From NCBI GenBank assembly GCA_015057755.1, contig SVDR01000039.1:1-24853 (forward strand): DNA of 24,853 bases, in the 5' to 3' direction. This document shows, piece after piece, positions 2,796-17,237 of the stretch. The DNA is from Lachnoclostridium sp. (lineage in GTDB: Bacteria; Bacillota_A; Clostridia; Lachnospirales; Lachnospiraceae). Under the pieces are notes generated by a model. The model searched no databases. It was not told where the DNA came from and saw only the letters and a list, made by a program, of their open reading frames with translations. The position numbers and the translations under genes are program-made. The stretch's first letter is position 1. Each line of letters opens with the position of its first letter.

Positions 2796-5549
2796 TTATT
2801 TGTTTGTTTTGTATAACACACGGATAGAGTTGAGCACACAGAGCATTGCTACGCCGGAGTCTGCGAATACGGCCATCCACATGGATGCGATTCCGAATAA
2901 ACCGAGAACCATAACCAGGGCTTTGATCGCGAGGGCGAATACCACGTTCTGGTAGGCAATGGAACCTGTCTGTTTTGCGATGCGGATGGATTCCGGGATG
3001 GCTTCCATGCTGGAAGTCATGAATACCACATCGGCGGCCTCGATGGCTGCGTCTGCACCGCTTCCCATAGCAGCGCCTACGTCCGCACCTGCAAGTACCG
3101 GAGCGTCGTTGATACCGTCACCGACGAACATGGCATTTCCATGCTCTTTGCGGAGCTTCTTGAGAATGTCAAGTTTGTCGCCCGGAAGAAGCTTGGAGTA
3201 TACGGTGTCGATGCCGGTTTCGGCTGCAACTGCCTTTGCTGTTTCTTCGCCGTCACCTGTGAGCATCGCTGTGTGAATGCCAAGCTTCTTTAAGGAAGCG
3301 ACAGCAGCAGCGGACTCTGGTTTGATGGTGTCAGCGATGGCGATGGAACCAATGTATGTACTGTCTTTTGCAAGGAGAACCGTTGTTGCGGACGGATCTT
3401 CCTGGACGGAGGCCATGTCTACATGATTCTCTTCAAGGAATAAACGGTTACCGCAGAGGATCACACCTGCGTGTGTCACGGCGCGGATGCCTTTACCGGA
3501 GATTTCCTGGATGTCATCCGTAGTTTCGATCTTCAGGGATTTTTCCTGTGCGGCTGTGAGAATGCTGTTTCCGATCGGGTGTGTGGAAGCGGTCTCACAT
3601 GCAGCTGCCAGAGCCAGAAGCTCGTCTTCAGACATACCGTGTTCCGGCATGATTTTCTGAACAACGAAGTTACCTTTTGTAATGGTGCCTGTCTTGTCCA
3701 TAACAACCGTTTTTACATTTTTCAGTGCTTCAATGGCAACGCCGCCTTTGAAAAGGATGCCTTGTTTGGAGCCTGCGCCGATGCCTGAGAAGAAGGCAAG
3801 CGGTACGCTCAGTACGAGAGCACACGGACAGCTGATTACCAGGAAAGTAAGGGCTGTGTATACCCAGTGATTCCAGTCGCCTGTGATAATGGATGGAATG
3901 ATCGCAGTCGCAGCTGCGAGGGCAACAACGAACGGTGTGTATACACGTGCAAATTTTGTAATAAAACGCTCAACCTGCGGTTTGCTTGCGGCAGCGTTTT
4001 CAACAGAATCCAGGATTCTTGTTACCATGGATTCGGACAGTTCTTTTTCGACTCTCATTTTCAGGAGACCGGAAGTATTTACGCAGCCGGAAATGACAGA
4101 TGCGCCCGGCTTTACAGCTACCGGAACCGGCTCACCTGTGATCGGAGAGGTGTCGATGCGGCTTTCGCCGTCCACAACGATACCGTCTAACGGGATTCTG
4201 TCGCCCGGACGAACATGAATGATCTGACCGACTTCGCAAAGTTCAGCCGGAATTTCACGTGTGGAGCCGTTTGTGTCAAGGAGAACCGTCTCCGGACGAA
4301 GGTCAACAGCCTCCATGATCTGGCTGCGGCTCTTTTCAACAGCTCTGTGCTCGAATGCCTGACCGACGCGGTAGAAGAGCATTACGCCAACGGCTTCTGC
4401 ATATTCGTGGATCGCAAAGGCGCCGATGGTTGCGATACTCATAAGGAAGTTTTCGTCCATCATGTGGCCGGTCTTCAGGTTTTTGAGAGCAGTTTTCAGC
4501 ACATCTTTTCCGAGAATGATGTATGCGGCAATGAAGCATGCAATGGATGCCAGCGGGATCGCGCCTCCGATGAGATTTCCGATCACAAAAAGGATTGCTC
4601 CTGCGATGATTTCCTTTTTGTCATTTTTATGTTCATCATGGTCGGCGTTGGCCTGTACTTTTGTGCCGTCCTCTCGAACCGTGATTTTTGTGCCAGGTTC
4701 AATGCGGTCTGCAATTTCCTGCATCTGCGGGAGAAGTTCCGTGCCCTTTTTAGAGTAGACACGAAGCTGTCTGGTTGCGAATGTAAGAACTGCATCGTCA
4801 ACATCCGGAAGTTCGCGGATCTTGGCCTCAATCTTTGCGGAGCAGTTTGCACAGTCGATGTTTTCTAAATTGTATACCACACAGTCTTTCTTAACCGGTT
4901 TCTGGCGCACTTCGATGATTGTGCCCGGCTCGATCTTATCAGCGATTTCCTGCATCTTCGGTAAGATTGCAGTGCCTGCAGTGGAGTAGACGCGGAGCTG
5001 TCTGGTTGCAAATGTAAGAATTGCATCATCGACCTCTGGGAGCTCTTTGATGCGCTGCTCGATTTTTGCGGAGCAGTTTGCACAATCGATGTTCTTCATC
5101 ACATATACGATGCACGGGGCTTTAGATGTCGTAACCACTGTAGCAGCGTGCTCGTGATGACCATGGTGATGGTGTTCATGATGGTGTTCGTGGTGGTGTT
5201 CGTGACCGTGATCATGACCGCAGGAGCAGGATTCGCCGTGCTCGTGGTGGTGGTGCTCATGGTGATGTTCATGATGATGCTCGTGACTATGATCATGACC
5301 GCAGGAGCAGGACTCGCCATGTTCGTGGTGATGATGCTCATGGTGGTGCTCGTGGCCGTGGTCATGTCCACAGGAGCAGGACTCGCCATGTTCATGGTGA
5401 TGATGCTCATGGTGGTGCTTGTGGCCGTGGTCATGTCCACAGGAGCAAGACTCGCCGTGTTCGTGGTGGTGGTGCTCATGATGATGCTCGTGACCGTGGT
5501 CATGTCCGCAAGAGCAGGATTCGCCATGTTCGTGTTTATGTTCGCTCAT
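2796..5549 (-). CDS. cadA: P1B-2 type heavy-metal (Zn/Cd/Pb) exporting P-type ATPase with His/Cys repeat tail
   Basis: 917 aa; start fixed by AAGGAGG directly upstream. Domain order: a His/Cys-rich repeat tail (residues 3-134), two HMA metal-binding domains with NIDCANC (Cys156/159 and Cys233/236), transmembrane helices, actuator TGEP (471-474), the membrane CPC motif (574-576), phosphorylation motif DKTGT (Asp618), HP dipeptide (657-658), GDGINDAP hinge (810-817) and the last helices. Lys876 and Asp897 match the membrane-buried Lys and Asp of ZntA-type pumps, arguing for Zn2+/Cd2+/Pb2+ rather than Cu+ export. The two HMA domains are nearly identical, pointing to recent duplication. The promoter carries an ArsR/SmtB-type palindrome, so expression is probably induced by metal. 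No ArsR-type regulator gene lies in the window. The symbol is by family resemblance only; exact metal preference is not provable from sequence. Confidence 0.95.
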   Translation of the reverse strand: MSEHKHEHGESCSCGHDHGHEHHHEHHHHEHGESCSCGHDHGHKHHHEHHHHEHGESCSCGHDHGHEHHHEHHHHEHGESCSCGHDHSHEHHHEHHHEHHHHEHGESCSCGHDHGHEHHHEHHHEHHHHGHHEHAATVVTTSKAPCIVYVMKNIDCANCSAKIEQRIKELPEVDDAILTFATRQLRVYSTAGTAILPKMQEIADKIEPGTIIEVRQKPVKKDCVVYNLENIDCANCSAKIEAKIRELPDVDDAVLTFATRQLRVYSKKGTELLPQMQEIADRIEPGTKITVREDGTKVQANADHDEHKNDKKEIIAGAILFVIGNLIGGAIPLASIACFIAAYIILGKDVLKTALKNLKTGHMMDENFLMSIATIGAFAIHEYAEAVGVMLFYRVGQAFEHRAVEKSRSQIMEAVDLRPETVLLDTNGSTREIPAELCEVGQIIHVRPGDRIPLDGIVVDGESRIDTSPITGEPVPVAVKPGASVISGCVNTSGLLKMRVEKELSESMVTRILDSVENAAASKPQVERFITKFARVYTPFVVALAAATAIIPSIITGDWNHWVYTALTFLVISCPCALVLSVPLAFFSGIGAGSKQGILFKGGVAIEALKNVKTVVMDKTGTITKGNFVVQKIMPEHGMSEDELLALAAACETASTHPIGNSILTAAQEKSLKIETTDDIQEISGKGIRAVTHAGVILCGNRLFLEENHVDMASVQEDPSATTVLLAKDSTYIGSIAIADTIKPESAAAVASLKKLGIHTAMLTGDGEETAKAVAAETGIDTVYSKLLPGDKLDILKKLRKEHGNAMFVGDGINDAPVLAGADVGAAMGSGADAAIEAADVVFMTSSMEAIPESIRIAKQTGSIAYQNVVFALAIKALVMVLGLFGIASMWMAVFADSGVAMLCVLNSIRVLYKTNK
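5148..5543 (-). repeat. Five tandem coding repeats, His/Cys-rich N-terminus of the metal ATPase
   Basis: Five in-frame units of 69, 69, 69, 81 and 81 bases encode EHGESCSCGHDHGH followed by clusters of EHHH/HHHH, and a short GHHEH tail. Units 1-3 are 23 residues and units 4-5 are 27 residues long. Each has one CSC pair and about a dozen His. The DNA of the units is very similar, so copy number could vary by slippage or recombination. Confidence 0.95.
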
Positions 5550-7233: not shown

Positions 7234-7335
7234 AAACAGAAGAAACAAAAAATAACGATATTCGTGCAGAAAATGACCCAATACAGATTCAGCGGAATTT
7301 TGTGTTATGATAGAGACAGCAAAAGGGGTGACAGA

Positions 7336-8055
7336 ATGATACGAATTGCAATTTGTGATGATGACAGAGAATATGGAGCATGGTTGGAGAATCTGATTTT
7401 CCACGCATTCGGAAACGGAGTTGAAGTGAATCAGTACAGCAGTGGAGAGGATTATCTCGTGGATGTGGACATGATGCATGAGCTGATCTTTTTGGATGTG
7501 GAAATGCCCGGAATTGACGGAATTGAGACCGCGGCCAGGATTCGAAAAGAAAACAGAAACGCAGTATTAGTCTTTATTTCTGGGGCACGAAATCCAACGC
7601 CGGAATCGTTTAAGATGGCTCCTTACCGCTATTTGCTGAAGAGTTTCTCTGTTCAGGAACTGGAGAAGGAACTGACGGAGATTGTTGCAGAGACAAAACG
7701 TGTGTTTTCAGAGGAGTATTTGATCTGTGAAATGGATGGTCACAGTATTCGTGTGAAGCTGATGGACATCTTATATATTTCGATTGTTCGTGGCGGATGT
7801 CAGATTCGTACATACGATGGTGGGAATACCGATGGAGCTTTTGTGCGGGAAAAATTGGCATTACTCGCAAAGAAACTGGAGGATAAAGATTTTGTACAGG
7901 CCCATAACAGTTATCTCATAAACCTCCGGAATGTGGAATCTTTTTCGAAAGTGGAAGTTGTTTTGAAGGATCAGACGACATTGGCAATTTCCAGATCAAA
8001 ATACAGTGAATTTGAAAGACGAATATTTGCGTATTGGGGAAGGAAGTATGGGTAA
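7336..8055 (+). CDS. LytTR-family response regulator (AgrA/ComE/VirR-like)
   Basis: 239 aa. The start at 7336 (MIRIAICDDD) follows AGGGGTGAC; an in-frame ATG upstream would add residues foreign to the family. Receiver domain (1-120): acidic pair Asp8/Asp9 within CDDD, phosphoacceptor Asp54 in FLDVEMPG, Ser82 and Lys102. The C-terminal LytTR DNA-binding domain (about 130-235) contains VQAHNSYLINLRNV. It should be phosphorylated by the kinase encoded next and bind direct repeats in promoters. Its TAA overlaps the kinase ATG (TAATG), so the two are translationally coupled. Regulators of this type commonly control peptide-triggered or bacteriocin-type gene sets; the target here is not visible. 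Confidence 0.92.
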   Translation: MIRIAICDDDREYGAWLENLIFHAFGNGVEVNQYSSGEDYLVDVDMMHELIFLDVEMPGIDGIETAARIRKENRNAVLVFISGARNPTPESFKMAPYRYLLKSFSVQELEKELTEIVAETKRVFSEEYLICEMDGHSIRVKLMDILYISIVRGGCQIRTYDGGNTDGAFVREKLALLAKKLEDKDFVQAHNSYLINLRNVESFSKVEVVLKDQTTLAISRSKYSEFERRIFAYWGRKYG

Positions 8056-9332
8056 TGGATATTTTTAAAATTTATAATTTCATTATGAGGTTTGGGTTTT
8101 CGCTCCCTATTTGGCTGTTTCAGCTTGCGATAGTCTATAATCTTTGTAATAGTGTATTGGGGGTACGTGAAGAGAGAAAGAAATATGCATTTCGATCGCT
8201 GGTATTGATGATTCTGGTGTTTTTGCTTATGCCCAACAATACGAATGGGATGAAAATACTGATTATTGTGCTTGGTTCCATATGGCTTTTTCGTGGAGGT
8301 CTTGCACAAAAGGTATGTACATCATTGCTGGGAACGTTTGTGTGGTTTTACTGTCTGGCAGCAGCTGTTGCCCTCCAACGGGTAACAGGATTTGAGCCGC
8401 AGACTCAAATTGGCTTTCAGGTGTTTACGTGTTTCCTGGGAAATCTTTTAATTGCTGTTGTTGTGAAAAAAATCGGAGATGCCTGTCTGGAAGAAGATTT
8501 TGAAAAGGATGGATGGCTGTTTGCAAGTGTTTCAGTTGTAAACTTTCTAATCATGGGTATTATAGATGAGTCATTGTCTACAGATTGGAATGGAATGCTG
8601 GCGTGGATGGTTGTAATGGGAATGCTTGCTTTTGTAGATATATGTCTATTTATCTACTACGAGCGCAACATTTTAAAGAAAAAGAAGCTGAAACTTGCTA
8701 CTGAATTTCAAAAGAAAAATGAATTAGAGCAGCAACATTATCAGCGACTGGAGGAAGTACAGAATGAATTTCGCAGTTTGACACACGATATGAATCATTA
8801 TCTGAATGTACTTTCTAATATGAAAGAAGAAAAAATAAGTGGAGCGCAGCATGAATTGGCAGAACAGATTCAGGCAAGGATTTGTGAAACAAGCCGAAGC
8901 GTATACTGTATGCGTCCGGTATTAAATGCAATTTTAAATGAAAAAGAAATAGTAGCGAGAGAACAGGACATTGCATTTGAAGTCTTCGTTGAACCGGGTT
9001 TCGATGTGGAGAATTTGGATGATTATTCCATGATCGGTATTATGTCCAATTTGATTGATAATGCGATTGAGGCTGCAGGAAAATTGGAAGAGAAACGTTG
9101 GATTCGCATTCATTTATTTGCGGTCAACGATGGAAAACAGAATTTTATCCGAATTGAAAACAGTATGATTTATGAACCGGTTAAGCAAACGAGAGGGTTC
9201 TTTACTAAAAAGGAGAACAAAAAACAGCATGGTCTGGGACTTAAAAATGTTCAGAAGCTTGTGGAAAACAATAAGGGGATTTTGCGGCTTCAGGCAGAGG
9301 AAGGACGCTTTGTTGCGGAGGTTGTTTTTTAA
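8055..9332 (+). CDS. GHKL-type sensor histidine kinase (AgrC/ComD-like)
   Basis: 425 aa. The start at 8055 overlaps the regulator's stop (TAATG) and has AGGAAG eight bases upstream. The N-terminal half (about 15-205) is hydrophobic with roughly six membrane helices. The cytosolic half has His244 in SLTHDMNHYLN (phosphorylation site of the HPK10 type), the N box SNLIDNAIEAA (331-341) and a single G box HGLGLKNV (392-399); the usual DxGxG box is replaced by IRIENSM, as in AgrC-like kinases. It probably senses an extracellular ligand through its membrane part and phosphorylates the neighbouring regulator. Known relatives sense secreted peptides, but no peptide precursor or AgrB-like processing gene is present, so the ligand is unknown. 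Confidence 0.92.
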   Translation: MDIFKIYNFIMRFGFSLPIWLFQLAIVYNLCNSVLGVREERKKYAFRSLVLMILVFLLMPNNTNGMKILIIVLGSIWLFRGGLAQKVCTSLLGTFVWFYCLAAAVALQRVTGFEPQTQIGFQVFTCFLGNLLIAVVVKKIGDACLEEDFEKDGWLFASVSVVNFLIMGIIDESLSTDWNGMLAWMVVMGMLAFVDICLFIYYERNILKKKKLKLATEFQKKNELEQQHYQRLEEVQNEFRSLTHDMNHYLNVLSNMKEEKISGAQHELAEQIQARICETSRSVYCMRPVLNAILNEKEIVAREQDIAFEVFVEPGFDVENLDDYSMIGIMSNLIDNAIEAAGKLEEKRWIRIHLFAVNDGKQNFIRIENSMIYEPVKQTRGFFTKKENKKQHGLGLKNVQKLVENNKGILRLQAEEGRFVAEVVF

Positions 9333-9368
9333 TTGGAAAAGGGAATTTACAGAGGGGGAGATTGCTGA

Positions 9369-10196
9369 ATGGAGAAAAAAAGAGATTGGATAAATGTTTT
9401 AAGCTGCTTGCTTGGCGGATTTGTTTTATTGTGTTTTTCCGGAATCATTTCTCAGCCATTGGAAAAGATTATGCCGCCATACGGGTATTTGTTTCGTTTC
9501 CTTGTATATGCGGCCCTTACCATTGCCAGTGTCAAATATCTGACGAAACAGGCAGGTATTACTCTTGAACAGTGTCGGATTACAAAAGTACGTTTACATC
9601 CATTGGGAATATTGTTCGCAATCTGTTTACCGGTGGTTATGGTATTATGGACGATTCATGGGGAGCCGGGACATTTTGTATATAATCAAATGTCAACAGA
9701 ACAGGCAATGGAGATATTATTCTATTTGATGTTTCATACTGGATTTTGCAGCGGTATTGTGGAAGAGATGATGTTTCGTGGTGCCTTAACCAGAATTTGC
9801 GAGGAGAAGGTAGGAAGACGATTGGCATGGATCATGCCGACATTTTTATTTGTACTCCCGCATCTTCGGAATATTAGTAGTCCGCTGGATTTTTGGAGTA
9901 CGTGTTTATTTATGACAGCAATTAGTATCTTTTTTACAGTTCTTACATATAGGACAGGTACGGTTTGGGATGCGGCACTTGTTCATGCATTTTGGGACAT
10001 GTTTGCGGCAAGAAGTAATGTGGTTGCAGTAAGTTCGGAAATGGAGAGTGGTGCATTTTTTACATACGTATTGGATTGCCCGGAGTTACATCCACTTCAA
10101 AATGTGAGAGGAAACGAATCGCTGTGGATGGTTTCTGCAGTATTCCTCGTATGTTCTGGCCTGCTGGCTGTTTCCAATCTCCGAAAAAAGCGATAA
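9369..10196 (+). CDS. CPBP-family intramembrane glutamic endopeptidase (Abi/CAAX protease-like)
   Basis: 275 aa with about seven membrane helices. The three family motifs are present in order: EEMMFR (Glu132, Glu133, Arg137), FVLPH (His165) and HAFWD (His206, Asp210). All are placed in or near hydrophobic segments, as in the Rce1/MmRce1 active site. The start at 9369 follows GGGGGAG at good spacing and lies 36 bases after the kinase stop, so it is the third gene of the regulator-kinase operon. Bacterial CPBP proteins beside peptide-responsive kinases are often linked to bacteriocin immunity or to processing of a secreted peptide; which applies here is inference. No terminator is seen after it, only the nucleoside hydrolase promoter. 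Confidence 0.88.
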   Translation: MEKKRDWINVLSCLLGGFVLLCFSGIISQPLEKIMPPYGYLFRFLVYAALTIASVKYLTKQAGITLEQCRITKVRLHPLGILFAICLPVVMVLWTIHGEPGHFVYNQMSTEQAMEILFYLMFHTGFCSGIVEEMMFRGALTRICEEKVGRRLAWIMPTFLFVLPHLRNISSPLDFWSTCLFMTAISIFFTVLTYRTGTVWDAALVHAFWDMFAARSNVVAVSSEMESGAFFTYVLDCPELHPLQNVRGNESLWMVSAVFLVCSGLLAVSNLRKKR

Positions 10197-11261: not shown

Positions 11262-11281
11262 TTAAATAAATAGCCGATAAG

Positions 11282-11319
11282 AGGCTGAATTCCATACGAT
11301 ATGGGATTCAGCCTTTTTT
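11282..11319 (+). terminator. Intrinsic terminator of the nucleoside hydrolase gene
   Basis: A 15-bp stem with one G-T pair (AGGCTGAATTCCATA at 11282-11296 with TATGGGATTCAGCCT at 11300-11314), tight loop, then a run of six T. Confidence 0.92.
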
Positions 11320-11422: not shown

Positions 11423-12751
11423 ATGGGACGAATCGGAAAGCGGTTATCTTCATCTCAAATTATTATACTCGGATTTGCGGCGGCGATTTTGACCGGTTGT
11501 TTCTTGCTTATGCTGCCAATCGCTACGTTAGATGGTAAAGGGGCAAGGTTTACGGATGCACTGTTTACAGCAACCTCCGCTGTCTGTGTTACCGGATTGA
11601 TCGTACGGGATACTGCTACATATTGGAGTATGTTTGGTCAGGCAGTGATCTTGGGTTTGATTCAGATTGGAGGCATGGGTGTTGTCACAATTGCAATTGC
11701 AATTTCAACATTATCTGGAAGGCAGATCAGTTTGAAGCAGCGAAGTACGATGCAGGAGGCAATATCTGCCCCGAAAGTAGGAGGAATCGTCCGATTAACC
11801 GGATTTATTATTAAGATGACCATTATCTTTGAACTTCTCGGTGCTGCACTCATGGCTCCGACATTTTGCAAAGAATTTGGTATCTGGAAGGGAATCTGGT
11901 ATTCTGCATTTCATTCCATTTCTGCATTCTGCAATGCCGGATTTGATCTGATGGGTATAAAAACACCGTATTCTTCCCTTACTTATTTCGTGACTCATCC
12001 GGTCATCAACATTGTCGTCATGTCATTGATCATAATTGGCGGTATCGGATTCACGACATGGGATGATATTAAGACAAACAGACATTATATTAGAAAATAC
12101 CGGATGCAGAGTAAGGTTATTTTGCTGACTACAAGTTTATTGATCCTGGTCCCGACTGCTTATTTTTTCTTTTTTGAATTTGGAAATAAACCATTTGCAG
12201 AACGGATATGGAGTTCTCTGTTCCAGGCAGTCACACCGAGAACAGCCGGATTTAATACTGCAGAACTGGCGGAGATCAGTGAAGTCGGTACTGCGATTAC
12301 GATTGTGCTTATGCTGATCGGAGGCTCGCCGGGATCGACTGCCGGCGGTATGAAGACCACAACGCTTGCAGTTATGTTATCGACGGCAGTTTCTGTATTT
12401 CGACGCAGAGAGCATACTCATTTTTTTGGACGCAGGGTAAATGACGATACGGTCCGAAATGCAGCAACGATCCTGATGATGTATGTCATTCTGTTTTTGA
12501 CGGGTGGATTTATCATCAGTTATATGGAAGAACTTCCGTTGCTGACATGTTTGTATGAAACGGCATCGGCCATTGGAACTGTAGGATTAACGCTTGGCAT
12601 TACATCAGATCTGGGAATGATTTCCCGGCTGATCTTGATTTTGTTAATGTATATTGGCAGAGTTGGCGGTTTGACTTTGATTTTCTCAGCGCTGTCCGGA
12701 AATCAGGGGAATACAGCACGGCTTCCGCAAGAAAAACTGACGGTTGGATAA
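11423..12751 (+). CDS. ktrB: KtrB/TrkH-type potassium uptake channel subunit
   Basis: 442 aa integral membrane protein that conducts K+ inward, in Ktr systems with Na+ dependence. It has the four-fold M1-P-M2 plan: the selectivity-filter glycines are Gly58 (TSAVCVTGL), Gly173 (ISAFCNAGF), Gly276 (VTPRTAGFN) and Gly388 (ASAIGTVGL). The Gly/Ser/Thr-rich intramembrane gating loop GGSPGSTAGGMKTTT lies at 300-314. Length and single-glycine filters are those of KtrB rather than the longer E. coli TrkH. Start at 11423 follows GGAGGGCGTG. The stop is 10 bases before the ktrA start, with the ktrA ribosome binding site overlapping it. First gene of the apparent operon through kdpE. Confidence 0.93.
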   Translation: MGRIGKRLSSSQIIILGFAAAILTGCFLLMLPIATLDGKGARFTDALFTATSAVCVTGLIVRDTATYWSMFGQAVILGLIQIGGMGVVTIAIAISTLSGRQISLKQRSTMQEAISAPKVGGIVRLTGFIIKMTIIFELLGAALMAPTFCKEFGIWKGIWYSAFHSISAFCNAGFDLMGIKTPYSSLTYFVTHPVINIVVMSLIIIGGIGFTTWDDIKTNRHYIRKYRMQSKVILLTTSLLILVPTAYFFFFEFGNKPFAERIWSSLFQAVTPRTAGFNTAELAEISEVGTAITIVLMLIGGSPGSTAGGMKTTTLAVMLSTAVSVFRRREHTHFFGRRVNDDTVRNAATILMMYVILFLTGGFIISYMEELPLLTCLYETASAIGTVGLTLGITSDLGMISRLILILLMYIGRVGGLTLIFSALSGNQGNTARLPQEKLTVG

Positions 12752-12761
12752 GGAGGAAACA

Positions 12762-13409
12762 ATGAAATCTGTATTATTGATAGGGCTTGGACGATTTGGC
12801 AGGCATATTGCCATGAAACTTAACGAATTGAACCATCAGGTGATGGCAGTGGATAACAATGAAGAACGGGTAAATGCAGCACTGCCGTTTGTTACCAACG
12901 CACAGATTGGTGACAGTACAAATGAAGAATTCCTTTCTTCTTTGGGAATTCGCAATTTTGATGCCTGTATTGTTGCGATCGGTGATGATTTTCAAAGTTC
13001 TCTGGAAACCGCATCTCTTTTAAAGGAGCTGGGGGCGAAGAAGATCATTGCAAGAGCGTCCAGAGGTGTGCAGGAAAAATTTTTGCTGCGAAACGGGGCA
13101 GACGAAGTTGTTTATCCGGAGAAGCAGCTTGCTGCGTGGACTGCCATCCGATGTACGTCGGAACATATTCGTGATTATATCGAACTGGACGAAGATTATT
13201 CGATTCTTGAACTGAACATACCGGAGGAATGGGATGGTAAAACCATCATTCAGTTAGATCTTCGTAAAAAATGCGGAATTAATATTTTGGGCATGAGAGA
13301 AAATGGAAAGCTCAATATGAATATAACTCCAGACACAGTTCTGAAAAAAGGAAGAACCATTTTGGTGTTGGGTCATCATAAGGCGGTGCAGAAATGTTTC
13401 CGGATTTAA
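12762..13409 (+). CDS. ktrA: KtrA/TrkA regulatory subunit, RCK domain protein
   Basis: 215 aa cytosolic ring-forming gating subunit of the Ktr system. The Rossmann GLGRFG motif (Gly8, Gly10, Gly13) and Asp31 at the end of strand 2 indicate binding of ATP/ADP or NAD(H). The second half (about 135-215) is an RCK_C/TrkA_C domain, a known site for c-di-AMP in Firmicutes. The start at 12762 is chosen over an earlier in-frame ATG because AAGGAGG lies immediately upstream, overlapping the ktrB stop. The only RCK protein near KtrB, so the two are partners. Confidence 0.93.
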   Translation: MKSVLLIGLGRFGRHIAMKLNELNHQVMAVDNNEERVNAALPFVTNAQIGDSTNEEFLSSLGIRNFDACIVAIGDDFQSSLETASLLKELGAKKIIARASRGVQEKFLLRNGADEVVYPEKQLAAWTAIRCTSEHIRDYIELDEDYSILELNIPEEWDGKTIIQLDLRKKCGINILGMRENGKLNMNITPDTVLKKGRTILVLGHHKAVQKCFRI

Positions 13410-13446: not shown

Positions 13447-13941
13447 ATGAAAGAGGTTATCCTATTGGTTGTTACACTGGCGATGTTTGCATTCGTCTAT
13501 GTTCTTATTATGAAAAAGATTGATCCGTTTATCAAAAAGAGTCGTCATTTTACGGATGTTCCAAACATGGAAAGTGGCTGTACCATAAGAATTGGTTTGG
13601 AGAGTCATGCACTGCGCGGAGCGATTGCGCCCGCATTAAAGCAGTGTTCTGAGATGAATCCGTTTGTACAGTGTGTTTTCAGTTACGGGAAACGTGGAAG
13701 ATTATTGAAAAAATTGACCAAGGGAAGCATTGACATCGCTATTCTATATGAGGATAATAGAAAGGAACTTGAAAAGGGGCTGGCACAAATTCGGATTCCT
13801 TATCAGATCGGTCAGGACATGAACTGGTGTTATGTGGCATGGAAAAAGTCAATGTCACATAAAGACAGGGACAGAGTTCTGTTTTATATTGAAAATGAGC
13901 ATTGCCGATTGAAAAGCGGCTATTGTGATTACATGAATTAG
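13447..13941 (+). CDS. Membrane-anchored protein of unknown function between ktrA and kdpD, with a substrate-binding-like fold
   Basis: 164 aa. One N-terminal membrane helix (about residues 3-22) is followed by KKIDPFIKKSR, so by the positive-inside rule the C-terminal body may be cytosolic. Residues 46-101 (CTIRIGLESHALRGAIAPAL, then FSYGKRGRLLKKLTKGSIDIAI) have the rhythm of the first lobe of LysR/periplasmic-type-2 substrate-binding domains (IRIG...P.L..F....P....F..G....L...L..G.IDIAI). The second lobe is incomplete, so it is a half domain or a degenerate copy. Start at 13447 is preferred over the ATG at 13432: GGGGTGAGAAGG precedes it, the same arrangement as before kdpD. It lies 37 bases after ktrA and 19 before kdpD, clearly in the operon. 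I do not know a named family for it; a role in linking Ktr and KdpD is only a suggestion. Confidence 0.8.
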   Translation: MKEVILLVVTLAMFAFVYVLIMKKIDPFIKKSRHFTDVPNMESGCTIRIGLESHALRGAIAPALKQCSEMNPFVQCVFSYGKRGRLLKKLTKGSIDIAILYEDNRKELEKGLAQIRIPYQIGQDMNWCYVAWKKSMSHKDRDRVLFYIENEHCRLKSGYCDYMN

Positions 13942-13960: not shown

Positions 13961-16546
13961 ATGAATCGTACAGATAAGGGAAAACTTAAAATCTTTTTCA
14001 GTTATTCGGGAGGAATCGGCAAAACACTCTCCATGATGAATGCTGCATGGGCGGCGAAAGAGCGTGGCGTAGAGGTGGTTGTCGGATACATTGCTGCTCA
14101 CACTCCGACAGAAAAGCTAGATAATCTTGCACAGTTTGAGGTGCTTGATCCTGAGAATACAGATACGTTCGATATTGACCGTGCATTGGAGCGGAAGCCA
14201 GAGCTGATCTTGATCGATGAACTGGCACACGCCAATCCGCCGGGAAGCCGTCATAAAGAGCGCTATCAGGAAGTGACAGAACTTCTCAATAACGGAATCG
14301 ATGTTTATACCACGATTAACGTTGGCAACATTGAGAGTCTTCGCGATCTGGTTGCGTCGATTACCGGTATCCATACATGGGAATGTATTCCGGATTCGAT
14401 TTTTGATACGGCTGATCAGGTAGAGTTGATCGACGTGGATCCGCAGGAATTGATCGAACGTCTGCGAGAGAAAAACACGGCTGAATCAAGGCTGACGCTG
14501 GAACAGCTGACTGCTTTACGTGAAATTGCGCTCAGACGCTGCACGGACAGAGTAAAGCATTTGTCAGACCGTATGCGGGATAAAAAGGGGTTCCATACGG
14601 ATGAGCATATTTTGGTTTGTTTATCCTCTGCGCCTTCTAATGCGAAGATTATCCGGACAGCAGCCCGCATGGCAAAAGCATTTAACAGCCAGTTTACTGC
14701 GCTGTTCGTGGAAACACCGGATTTTGCAGTGGCTACGGAGGAGAACAAGCAGCGGTTTCGTGATAACAGAAGGCTTGCGGAACAGCTGGGAGCCAACATT
14801 GAGATCGTATACGGTGATGATGTTCCTTACCAGATTGCGGAGTTTGCCCGTTTGTCCGGAATCACGAAAATCGTTCTTGGACGAAGTGCGCTGACCCGCA
14901 AACACTTTTTTGGAAAACCAACGCTGACAGAGCAGCTTCTTTCCTATGCGCCAGAGACGGATATTCACATTATTCCGGACAGAAACGCGGACCCGCTGTA
15001 TAAGCCGAAAAAAGCAAGAAATACAGACAAAGAAAATATTTTGAAAAATGGAATCATCAGCGGGCTGATCATGGTGGGTGCCACACTGCTTGGCATTGTC
15101 TTTGACAATTTGGGATTTACGGATGCCAATATTATCATGGTGTATATTTTGGGTGTGCTGCTGACTTCGATTGCAACTTCCCATCGGATTTACAGTCTGA
15201 TCTTTTCCATTGCCAGTGTGATTATTTTTAACTTCCTCTTTACGTGGCCAAGGTTTTCTCTTGTGGCTTACGGAACCGGATATCCGATCACATTTGTGAC
15301 GATGTTTCTGACCGCCTATATTACCGGAACATTTGCGATCCGCTATAAGGCCCAGGCCGGACAATCCGCCAAAATTGCTCATCGAACCAAGGTGCTGTTT
15401 GATACGGATCAGCTTTTGTCCAAGGCGAATGGCAAAGATGAGATCCTGCATGCAACGGCGAAGCAGATTCGAAAATTGCTGGATCGTAACATTGTGATTT
15501 TTGAAAATGAGAATGGTCGTTTGGGCGTTCCGTATTTTTCTCCGGTCAGTGATTCGGTGGATGCCGGTTATGATTTTGAAAATGAACGCGTGGCTGCTGA
15601 GTGGGTGTTACAGAATAACCATATTGCAGGAGCTACGACCGATACGCATGCAGATGTGCGTTATTTGTATCTTTCACTCCGTGTAAATGAGCGTGTCTAC
15701 GGTGTGGTTGGCATAGATGCCAAGGAAGCGCCGCTTGATGCGTCGGAACACGGTATCTTGCTTTCCATTCTCGGTGAGGCGGCATTGGCGCTGGAAAATG
15801 AGAAAAATGTCCGAGAAAAAGAGGCGGCAGCAGTGTTGGCAGAGAGTGAACAGCTGCGTGCGAATCTGCTGCGTTCCATTTCTCATGATCTGCGCACCCC
15901 GCTGACCTCTATTTCAGGAAATGCAAGCAATCTGATGGCGAACGGAAACAGTTTTGACGAAGAGACAAAAGTACAGATGTATGCAGATATCTATCATGAT
16001 TCGATGTGGCTGATCGAGCTGGTGGAAAATCTTTTGTATGCAACGCGCATCGAAGAGGGACGTATGATGCTCCATACGTCTGCAGAGCTTCTTAGTGAAA
16101 TTGTGGAAGCGGCCGTTTTGCGTATCAGGCGTAAGGCAAGTGATCATTCGCTGACGGTTTTTCATACCGATGACTTGCTGCTGGTAAATGCAGATGCTAA
16201 TCTGGTGGTGCAGGTTGTTACCAACATCATTGATAATGCGGTAAAATATACACCGGCGGGTTCTTCTATTTCGATCAAAACAAAACGGGTCGGAACGATG
16301 GCAGAAATACAGATTGCTGATACAGGAAACGGAATTTCAGAAAAAGATAAACAGCATATCTTTGACAAATTTTATTGCGGAGACCATAATGTAGCTGACA
16401 AACGCCGAAGCTTGGGATTGGGATTGTTTCTGTGCAAGGCGATCATAGAAGCGCATGGAGGTGCGATTTCTGTTTCTGATAATCAGCCGCAAGGTGCAGT
16501 ATTTACATTTACCCTTCCGCTGGAGGAGGTTTCTTACTATGAATAA
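13961..16546 (+). CDS. kdpD: KdpD sensor histidine kinase (K+ / osmotic sensing)
   Basis: 861 aa, close to E. coli KdpD. Order: KdpD N-terminal domain (1-210) with P-loop FSYSGGIGKT (13-22) and Walker B LILIDELAHANPPGSRHKERY; a universal stress protein domain (about 215-350); four membrane helices of DUF4118 (about 362-470); a GAF region (480-610); HisKA with His642 in ISHDLRTPLTS; and HATPase_c with NIIDNAVKYTP, DTGNGIS and LGLGLFLCK. The first P-loop glycine of the family (FGxxxGVGKT) is replaced by Ser14, and the usual NVQHLESL segment reads NVGNIESL. Start at 13961 follows AGAAGGTGAG; a GTG at 13952 is possible but lacks spacing. Its stop overlaps kdpE by 8 bases. No kdpFABC genes are near. 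Confidence 0.93.
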   Translation: MNRTDKGKLKIFFSYSGGIGKTLSMMNAAWAAKERGVEVVVGYIAAHTPTEKLDNLAQFEVLDPENTDTFDIDRALERKPELILIDELAHANPPGSRHKERYQEVTELLNNGIDVYTTINVGNIESLRDLVASITGIHTWECIPDSIFDTADQVELIDVDPQELIERLREKNTAESRLTLEQLTALREIALRRCTDRVKHLSDRMRDKKGFHTDEHILVCLSSAPSNAKIIRTAARMAKAFNSQFTALFVETPDFAVATEENKQRFRDNRRLAEQLGANIEIVYGDDVPYQIAEFARLSGITKIVLGRSALTRKHFFGKPTLTEQLLSYAPETDIHIIPDRNADPLYKPKKARNTDKENILKNGIISGLIMVGATLLGIVFDNLGFTDANIIMVYILGVLLTSIATSHRIYSLIFSIASVIIFNFLFTWPRFSLVAYGTGYPITFVTMFLTAYITGTFAIRYKAQAGQSAKIAHRTKVLFDTDQLLSKANGKDEILHATAKQIRKLLDRNIVIFENENGRLGVPYFSPVSDSVDAGYDFENERVAAEWVLQNNHIAGATTDTHADVRYLYLSLRVNERVYGVVGIDAKEAPLDASEHGILLSILGEAALALENEKNVREKEAAAVLAESEQLRANLLRSISHDLRTPLTSISGNASNLMANGNSFDEETKVQMYADIYHDSMWLIELVENLLYATRIEEGRMMLHTSAELLSEIVEAAVLRIRRKASDHSLTVFHTDDLLLVNADANLVVQVVTNIIDNAVKYTPAGSSISIKTKRVGTMAEIQIADTGNGISEKDKQHIFDKFYCGDHNVADKRRSLGLGLFLCKAIIEAHGGAISVSDNQPQGAVFTFTLPLEEVSYYE

Positions 16547-17237
16547 TTTTCAAATTTTAGTGGTTGAGGATGATGCTCCTGTATGTAACCTGATCACAAC
16601 CACATTAAAAGCTCATAAATATCGTTTTATTACGTCAAATACCGGAGAAGTTGCAGTTATGGAGGCGGCTTCTCATAATCCGGACATTATCTTGCTGGAT
16701 CTTGGTTTGCCGGATATTGACGGTGTCGAAGTAATTACGCGGATTCGAAGCTGGTCCAATGTTCCGATCATTGTCATCAGTGCGCGAAGTGAGGACAGTG
16801 ACAAGATCGATGCTTTGGATGCAGGAGCAGATGATTATCTGACAAAGCCGTTTTCCATTGATGAACTTCTTGCCCGTTTGCGTGTGACCCAGCGACGTCT
16901 GGCGTTGATGCAGAACAATCAGGTACAGGAAGCCTGTTATGAAAACGGAAGTCTTCGCATAGATTATGCTAAACGCTGTGCATATCTGGCGGAAGAGGAA
17001 TTATGTCTGACACCGATGGAGTATAAATTGTTATGTCTGCTTGCCCAAAATACCGGAAAAGTCCTAACCCATAAATTCATTCTTACGAATGTATGGGGCA
17101 GCAGTATGGAATCCAATGTCAGTTCGCTGCGTGTCTTTATGGCAACGCTGAGAAAAAAGCTAGAAAAAGCTCCGGATTCACCGCAGTATATCCAGACTCA
17201 TATTGGTGTAGGTTATCGCATGATGCGGGTGGAATAA
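16539..17237 (+). CDS. kdpE: KdpE response regulator (OmpR family)
   Basis: 232 aa. Receiver domain with acidic triad Glu10/Asp11/Asp12, phosphoacceptor Asp54 in LLDLGLPD, Ser81 and Lys103 (YLTKPFS), then an OmpR/PhoB winged helix (about 128-232) with LTPMEYKLLCLLAQN and the recognition-helix region VSSLRVFMATLRKKL. The start at 16539 overlaps the kdpD stop by 8 bases and has AGGAGG upstream, so translation is coupled. It is the last gene of the operon, ended by a strong terminator 25 bases later. In the absence of kdpFABC its likely target is the ktr operon itself or genes elsewhere. Confidence 0.93.
   Translation: MNNFQILVVEDDAPVCNLITTTLKAHKYRFITSNTGEVAVMEAASHNPDIILLDLGLPDIDGVEVITRIRSWSNVPIIVISARSEDSDKIDALDAGADDYLTKPFSIDELLARLRVTQRRLALMQNNQVQEACYENGSLRIDYAKRCAYLAEEELCLTPMEYKLLCLLAQNTGKVLTHKFILTNVWGSSMESNVSSLRVFMATLRKKLEKAPDSPQYIQTHIGVGYRMMRVE

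Follow-up and report, generated by a model that had tools for sequence, protein, structure and literature searches.

A protein of 164 aa, which we call X, is encoded between a TrkHA-type potassium transporter and a KdpD-type sensor kinase in a 24,853-nt stretch of DNA from Lachnoclostridium sp. (contig SVDR01000039.1; the whole stretch is referred to here as the window). The X family, its predicted fold and its linkage to these genes are well supported, and X is probably an undescribed helper of the KdpD sensor. The reading that TrkHA-KdpDE loci have in X a third component, not described before, which relays the state of the transporter or tunes the sensor, has in our judgement close to an even chance of being correct. 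The signal sensed by KdpD is a matter of long debate, and most work on KdpD has been done with the KdpFABC pump. Here, the KdpD-type sensor is tied to TrkHA, mostly lacks the N-terminal serine-kinase domain, and in 60 of 68 loci is accompanied by an additional membrane protein encoded at the same position; should X couple transporter to sensor, it would open a direct route to understanding how KdpD reads potassium. The literature searched, which comprised titles and abstract openings, with subscription papers mostly outside the scope, contained no account of a protein of this type.

The open reading frames of the window, together with Pfam and NCBIfam scans, place X in a five-gene run on the forward strand, trkH-trkA-X-kdpD-kdpE. 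The trkH gene (11423..12751) encodes a K+ channel-like subunit of the TrkH family (PF02386, E 2.2e-61; TIGR00933, 318.3 bits, just below the cut-off of 331), and trkA (12762..13409), which is KtrA-like, encodes a single RCK regulatory subunit with TrkA_N and TrkA_C domains (PF02254, PF02080). These are followed by X (13447..13941), for which ORF, relatives, Pfam matches and predicted model indicate one membrane helix and a LysR/PBP-II fold of a single lobe, and by kdpD (13961..16546), a sensor kinase with KdpD N-domain (PF02702, E 1.2e-63), Usp, DUF4118, GAF and HisKA/HATPase domains. The end of kdpD is overlapped by kdpE (16539..17237), an OmpR-type response regulator (PF00072, PF00486; NF007820, 227.9 bits, below the cut-off of 325). 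The preliminary description had put X between the transporter and the sensor kinase, and trkA and kdpD do flank it. Upstream of trkH, a terminator-like hairpin of 18 pairs with a T tail (11279..11317, forward strand), found by pattern match only, likely marks the upstream border of the operon; the window holds seven such sites vs 5.7 expected. A promoter-like TTGACA-17-GATAAT (11/12) lies within the X gene, upstream of kdpD (13730-13758, forward strand), and may be a chance match or could be an internal kdpDE promoter (20 sites of that kind vs 12.7 expected). The window gave no Rfam match at gathering scores, and megablast gave no plasmid match to the operon.

We place the start of X at 13447; the ORF finder gives 13432 (169 aa), and the M-K-[E/D] opening seen at 13447 begins six out of six relatives. 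These six further proteins, found among 5.8 billion searched, align with X end to end, with 26 positions invariant among the seven, while querying with wider alignments gave lists of 14 and 23 proteins, query members counted. Two of the entries listed have source names, both reading "hypothetical protein." No Pfam or NCBIfam family covers the whole length of any scanned X member, and no sequence relative was found in the PDB (best E 0.48). Hydropathy places a hydrophobic helix at approximately residues 4-22, and the predicted model has a helix at residues 2-36; with the charge count, we set the membrane helix at about residues 2-24 (13450..13518, forward strand); a neck rich in K/R comes after it. 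The ORF, hydropathy and model thus agree with the earlier claim of a 164-aa protein with one membrane helix. In 33 of 36 X members, the C-terminal side of the helix holds more lysine and arginine than the N-terminal side, and in none does it hold fewer; with just 0-5 residues ahead of the helix, this count is biased. The net charge of the C-terminal side is the more positive in 16 members, the less positive in 15 and equal in five; for the window X it is +3 vs 0 before the helix. With this K/R majority and equivocal net charge, the lobe that follows is probably, not surely, cytoplasmic, and the N-terminus probably outside. X has no cysteine before residue 45. A C-terminal cysteine metal site was considered and rejected for lack of conservation.

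Residues 44-154 (13576..13908, forward strand) form the predicted lobe, while residues 1-43 are the membrane helix and a loose linker in the model. Residues 46-104 match the LysR_substrate family (PF03466) with E 1.7e-5 and 24.8 bits, below the gathering score of 28. The same region was matched independently in six out of ten other X members scanned (P0008, 9.9e-7, 28.8 bits, above gathering; P0010, 7.3e-6; P0009, 1.9e-5; P0007, 5.3e-4; P0004, 0.0039; P0003, 0.022), and in the remaining four (P0006, P0011, L086, L093) it was not matched. In the predicted model, the lobe is equivalent to RD1 of the LysR effector domain, and RD2 is missing by comparison with CbnR: 111 model residues (102 aligned) span 205 residues of CbnR. 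From the model secondary structure read against the alignment ranges, the strand pair at residues 112-133 (13780..13845) appears to lie where a LysR domain would insert RD2. Like RD1 of CbnR (1ixc) and PqsR (6q7u), the model runs strand-helix-strand-helix-strand, followed by a strand pair and a last helix (residues 139-152, KDRDRVLFYIENEH; 13861..13902). Unlike LysR regulators, X has no DNA-binding domain (no HTH or winged HTH in the Pfam scan or the model) and no RD2, carries a helix in front, and sits in a K+ operon.

The preliminary description had proposed a half domain resembling the first lobe of a LysR/PBP2 ligand domain. Its likeness to that lobe stands, as PF03466 matches and a PBP-like predicted fold were obtained, the latter as expected. 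"Half" has to be refined, because the C-terminal strand and helix rejoin the same lobe in the model; X would thus have one whole lobe without the other, rather than a chain-wise half of the domain, and the model lacks the two lobes round a ligand cleft of type II periplasmic binding proteins (PBPs). Single-lobe forms of periplasmic binding proteins also fold alone; the available part of PMC10601554 deals with halves of the type I ribose-binding protein, whereas X would be a type II lobe on a membrane anchor. As a natural case of a lone PBP-II lobe, X bears on the rise and decay of two-lobe receptors.

To place X in its genomic setting, we surveyed loci anchored on TrkA (two families, 396 and 272 genomes, of which 77 and 82 matched at E <= 1e-70) and on KdpD (392 and 266 genomes, of which 63 and 93 matched at E <= 1e-90). 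A strict-pattern search for related loci found two loci only, being too narrow because the X family diverges fast. A close-family profile search gave matches in 8 of 195 and 6 of 197 genomes; of these matches, five (L007, L008, L009, L011, L016; frames of 291-329 aa) read as ordinary LysR regulators, which the profile by itself cannot tell apart from X. The first sample of loci covered 79 of 172 TrkA places (55 of 80 and 24 of 92), mostly the most similar, and comprised 32 with kdpD downstream, 43 without it and with room for it, and four that were too short and were dropped (L059, L061, L068, L081). Three of the 43 have a divergent kdpD (L062, L083, L087) and were set aside, leaving 40. The second sample consists of 36 trkA-kdpD pairs picked by eye for closeness on one strand, a choice that makes the sample dependent on kdpD; in one pair, L134, stop codons interrupt the kdpD match. 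The window, L001 and L155 lie outside the resulting 68 trkA-kdpD loci.

X lies between trkA and kdpD in 60 of these 68 loci. It is present in 26 of 32 in the first sample (24 by a script that scored small hydrophobic ORFs between the two genes, plus L057 and L058, with a GTG start, by eye; absent from L021, L029, L032, L033, L074 and L079) and in 34 of 36 in the second (absent from L101 and L105), as well as in the window, L001 and L155. The shortest members (30-50 aa) were assigned by position, hydrophobicity and a loose motif, not by proven homology to the window X. No ORF after trkA was judged X-like by eye in the 40 trkHA loci without kdpD at the locus. Eight of the 40 have any hydrophobic ORF there (L034, L038, L040, L051, L063, L065, L070, L078), and by eye these resemble unrelated genes (L078 has a SecG-like one, L034 and L038 have repeat proteins) or wrong-strand frames, with L051 and L065 the least certain calls. 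A Fisher test gave p ~6e-12, a value that ignores shared ancestry and was computed with nine hydrophobic ORFs in 40 where the real count is eight. Within the TrkA clade of the window, L017, L018 and L022 lack both kdpD and X. The neighbors of X are thus not random, and X is genetically linked to kdpD (60 of 68, vs none X-like in the 40).

X also precedes kdpD with no trkHA adjoining, in L135 (113 aa, near a contig end) and L152 (36 aa). Where kdpD is divergent, X stays behind trkA in four of six loci (L083, L087, L131, L132, two sister pairs in the TrkA tree; not L062 or L133); the frame listed for L131 has 55 aa, of which the last 30 match L132. Overall, linkage follows kdpD more closely than trkHA, and the divergent loci point to trkHA too.

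As a control, we read 20 regions (L136-L155) before kdpD copies chosen for having no adjoining TrkA match; L155 proved to be trkH-trkA-X-kdpD, L152 has X, and L153 was too short to read. In ten loci (L138-L146, L148) kdpC precedes kdpD, as Pfam confirms for all ten, and no ORF with the X motif was seen by eye before these kdpD copies. The kdpC-kdpD gap holds no small hydrophobic ORF in seven of the ten, and some in L141, L146 and L148. The ORFs of L146 (2149-2343) and L148 (2252-2356; kdpD forward) share an approximately 34-aa peptide, MFLI[FY]IGLPL..., that is unlike X by eye; since it is common to both loci, a different small helix protein precedes kdpD there, perhaps another small KdpD partner. 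Other genes precede kdpD in L147, L149 and L151 (with a 28-aa hydrophobic frame in L147), L154 has a 29-aa hydrophobic ORF before kdpD, and L150 has trkH followed by kdpD, with neither trkA nor X. In L028 and L137, kdpD is immediately preceded by a CorA-type gene of approximately 303 aa (matched by Pfam CorA in L137), and L136 contains only the end of this gene.

The length of X ranges from 30 to 177 aa. Long forms with the lobe occur at six places in the TrkA tree (a 37-row starred clade, L115, L086/L096, window/L001, L028 and L023/L026), while other forms are halved (L044, L072, L075, L076), lack the first half of the lobe (L106, L109) or are a bare helix (L035, L037, L053, L057, L058, L077). 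By parsimony, this pattern suggests an old lobe that was trimmed many times, with the number of events unsure because many deep forks of the TrkA tree are open. Because the lobe is wholly or partly missing from many members, the core function of X may reside in the helix and neck.

Of several possible functions, the adaptor between KtrA and KdpD put forward in the preliminary description is the best-fitting idea and the most likely. We propose a cytoplasmic lobe, next to TrkA and to the KdpD domains on that side of the membrane, and a helix that packs on the membrane part of KdpD and possibly on TrkH. Where the lobe is kept, it would contact KdpD and/or TrkA via its last helix, acting as a protein-contact module that shares ancestry with the ligand domain; it could be trimmed because the helix-neck part would carry the basic function. 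By contacting both sides, X would report transporter state or tune the kinase/phosphatase balance of the sensor. An adaptor touching KdpD and the trkHA products fits most cases, but not L150 or the eight X-less loci. The broadest form of this proposal is plausible, though on balance we lean against it: X would found a widespread single-lobe, membrane-anchored PBP-II family that physically couples a Trk/Ktr channel to a KdpD-type sensor for direct reading of its state, with the lobe a former ligand domain turned contact module and repeatedly stripped to a bare KdpF-like helix.

There are precedents for small partners of KdpD. Like X, KdpF is small, spans the membrane with a single helix and is encoded alongside a K+ transporter; it binds KdpD in a two-hybrid assay according to the accessible part of PMC3618439. 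KdpF has approximately 30 aa and lies in kdpFABC, whereas X often carries a soluble lobe and lies in trkHA-kdpDE. LprF and LprJ are lipoproteins, and hence outside the membrane. These Mycobacterium tuberculosis proteins are membrane-attached like X, and bind KdpD as accessory proteins thought to be sensors or ligand-binding, as far as the available text of PMC3610689 goes; unlike them, X has no cysteine near its N-terminus and its lobe is probably cytoplasmic.

The resemblance to KdpF allows another reading, in which X is a KdpF-like structural subunit of TrkHA whose helix stabilises the TrkH dimer or the TrkA ring, and kdpD is adjacent through co-regulation only. TrkH and KdpA are members of a single K+ transporter superfamily, and the shortest X forms (30-50 aa) share KdpF's size class and neighborhood, yet they have no KdpF family match, though profiles so short are insensitive: KdpF models matched none of nine X members and none of the eight shorter of ten more, with HMMER insensitive at 30-50 aa. 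Nor was X met in a kdpFABC setting; it occurs in trkHA-kdpDE loci, and its motif was not seen before the ten kdpC-following kdpD genes. While the retention of X in the trkHA operon in four of six divergent loci fits a TrkH partner equally well, the absence, as judged by eye, of an X-like ORF from 40 kdpD-less loci implies that related TrkHA do without X, and L135 and L152 have X with kdpD and no trkHA adjoining. Altogether, we consider the structural-subunit reading possible but unlikely.

Conservation within the lobe bears on whether X contacts a protein or a ligand. Among the seven close relatives, mean entropy is 0.37 in the last helix, the most conserved element, and 0.97-1.64 in the other 11 segments, although these values, drawn from just seven sequences that include two close pairs, are suggestive. 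The beta1-alpha1 and beta2-alpha2 loops, which correspond to the ligand rim of LysR domains, are some of the most variable segments (1.64 and 1.61), with strands 2 and 4 close behind (1.60 and 1.54); the deep X alignment is too divergent for a conservation peak. The pattern suggests that a protein contact, more than a ligand, has been conserved. A true small-molecule sensor, in which the lone discontinuous lobe binds a ligand and reports to KdpD, has the predicted LysR/PBP-II fold in its favor, and T-G is the majority pair after strand 2 in the deep X alignment. A lone discontinuous PBP-II lobe could bind a ligand, by analogy with many type II PBPs, in which one lobe, mostly the discontinuous one, holds most or almost all of the binding residues (available part of PMC10601554), and X keeps that lobe. 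Yet X has no second lobe to close over a ligand, its rim loops are variable, and the lobe is absent or halved in many members; a sensor of this kind is improbable in our view, and the small-molecule part of the original adaptor idea is weakened.

Selection on X was assessed in 15 close pairs, none of which includes the window X. In all 15, the divergence of X at the protein level (dN) is at least three times that of TrkA, which is unusual for a core subunit. Its dN/dS is 0.06-0.47 in the 14 pairs where it could be computed, with L100-L103 near saturation, and these related pairs are under purifying selection. For the helix part, dN/dS is 0.64 in L119-L122, 2.07 in L122-L123 and 0.83 in L035-L037, values that rest on few changes and argue against a strictly conserved helix. 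In L105, only a 3' remnant of X persists, in a stretch 89% identical to L104 running into kdpD; since the close relative L104 keeps X, X is dispensable in L105. Rapid divergence, the loss of the first lobe half in L106 and L109, and this broken remnant would fit a functionless, decaying LysR remnant captured between genes, but we disfavor this as very improbable, as whole-gene dN/dS is well under 1, the same architecture recurs at six places in the TrkA tree, the cut leaves a confidently predicted lobe, and LysR regulators are not known to carry a membrane helix.

The N-domain of KdpD is not a general partner of X. The KdpD match reaches the start of the N-terminal serine-kinase domain in nine of the 68 trkA-kdpD loci; it begins in the N-domain in five of the 60 with X (L023, L024, L025, L026, L028), and four loci without X have the domain (L029, L032, L033, L074). 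The idea that X substitutes for a missing N-domain fails as well, as L002, L093 and L104 combine a lobe with a short KdpD, and L024 and L025 a bare helix with a long one. According to the accessible portion of PMC11018627, the domain works in E. coli as an atypical serine kinase with KdpB as its target, and its motif is G-X5-GKT; the window KdpD retains GKT, with S in place of the first G. A link to c-di-AMP through the Usp domain was also rejected: the published motif, SXS-X20-FTAXY (from the available part of PMC4686210), with S allowed for T, occurs in 8 of 35 KdpD sequences, several of them truncated or without Usp, in 2 of 36 second-sample loci, and not in the window. KdpD proteins that start at Usp, without the N-terminal serine-kinase domain, and carry this motif (T/S allowed) occur in L035, L037, L044, L072, L075, L082, L084 and L086. 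In L046, L057 and L058, KdpD-like frames of approximately 375 aa lie beside trkHA-X; their match to the window KdpD begins near residue 361-365, and they thus lack the KdpD and Usp domains.

Elsewhere in the window, a 917-aa P-type metal ATPase (2796-5549, reverse strand; E1-E2_ATPase, two HMA stretches) has an N-terminal His/Cys-rich unit (HEHGESCSCGHDHGH...) repeated five times. A LytTR response regulator, a GHKL sensor and an Rce1-like (CPBP) protease are encoded in series at 7264-10196 (forward strand), an arrangement that resembles a peptide-sensing cassette.
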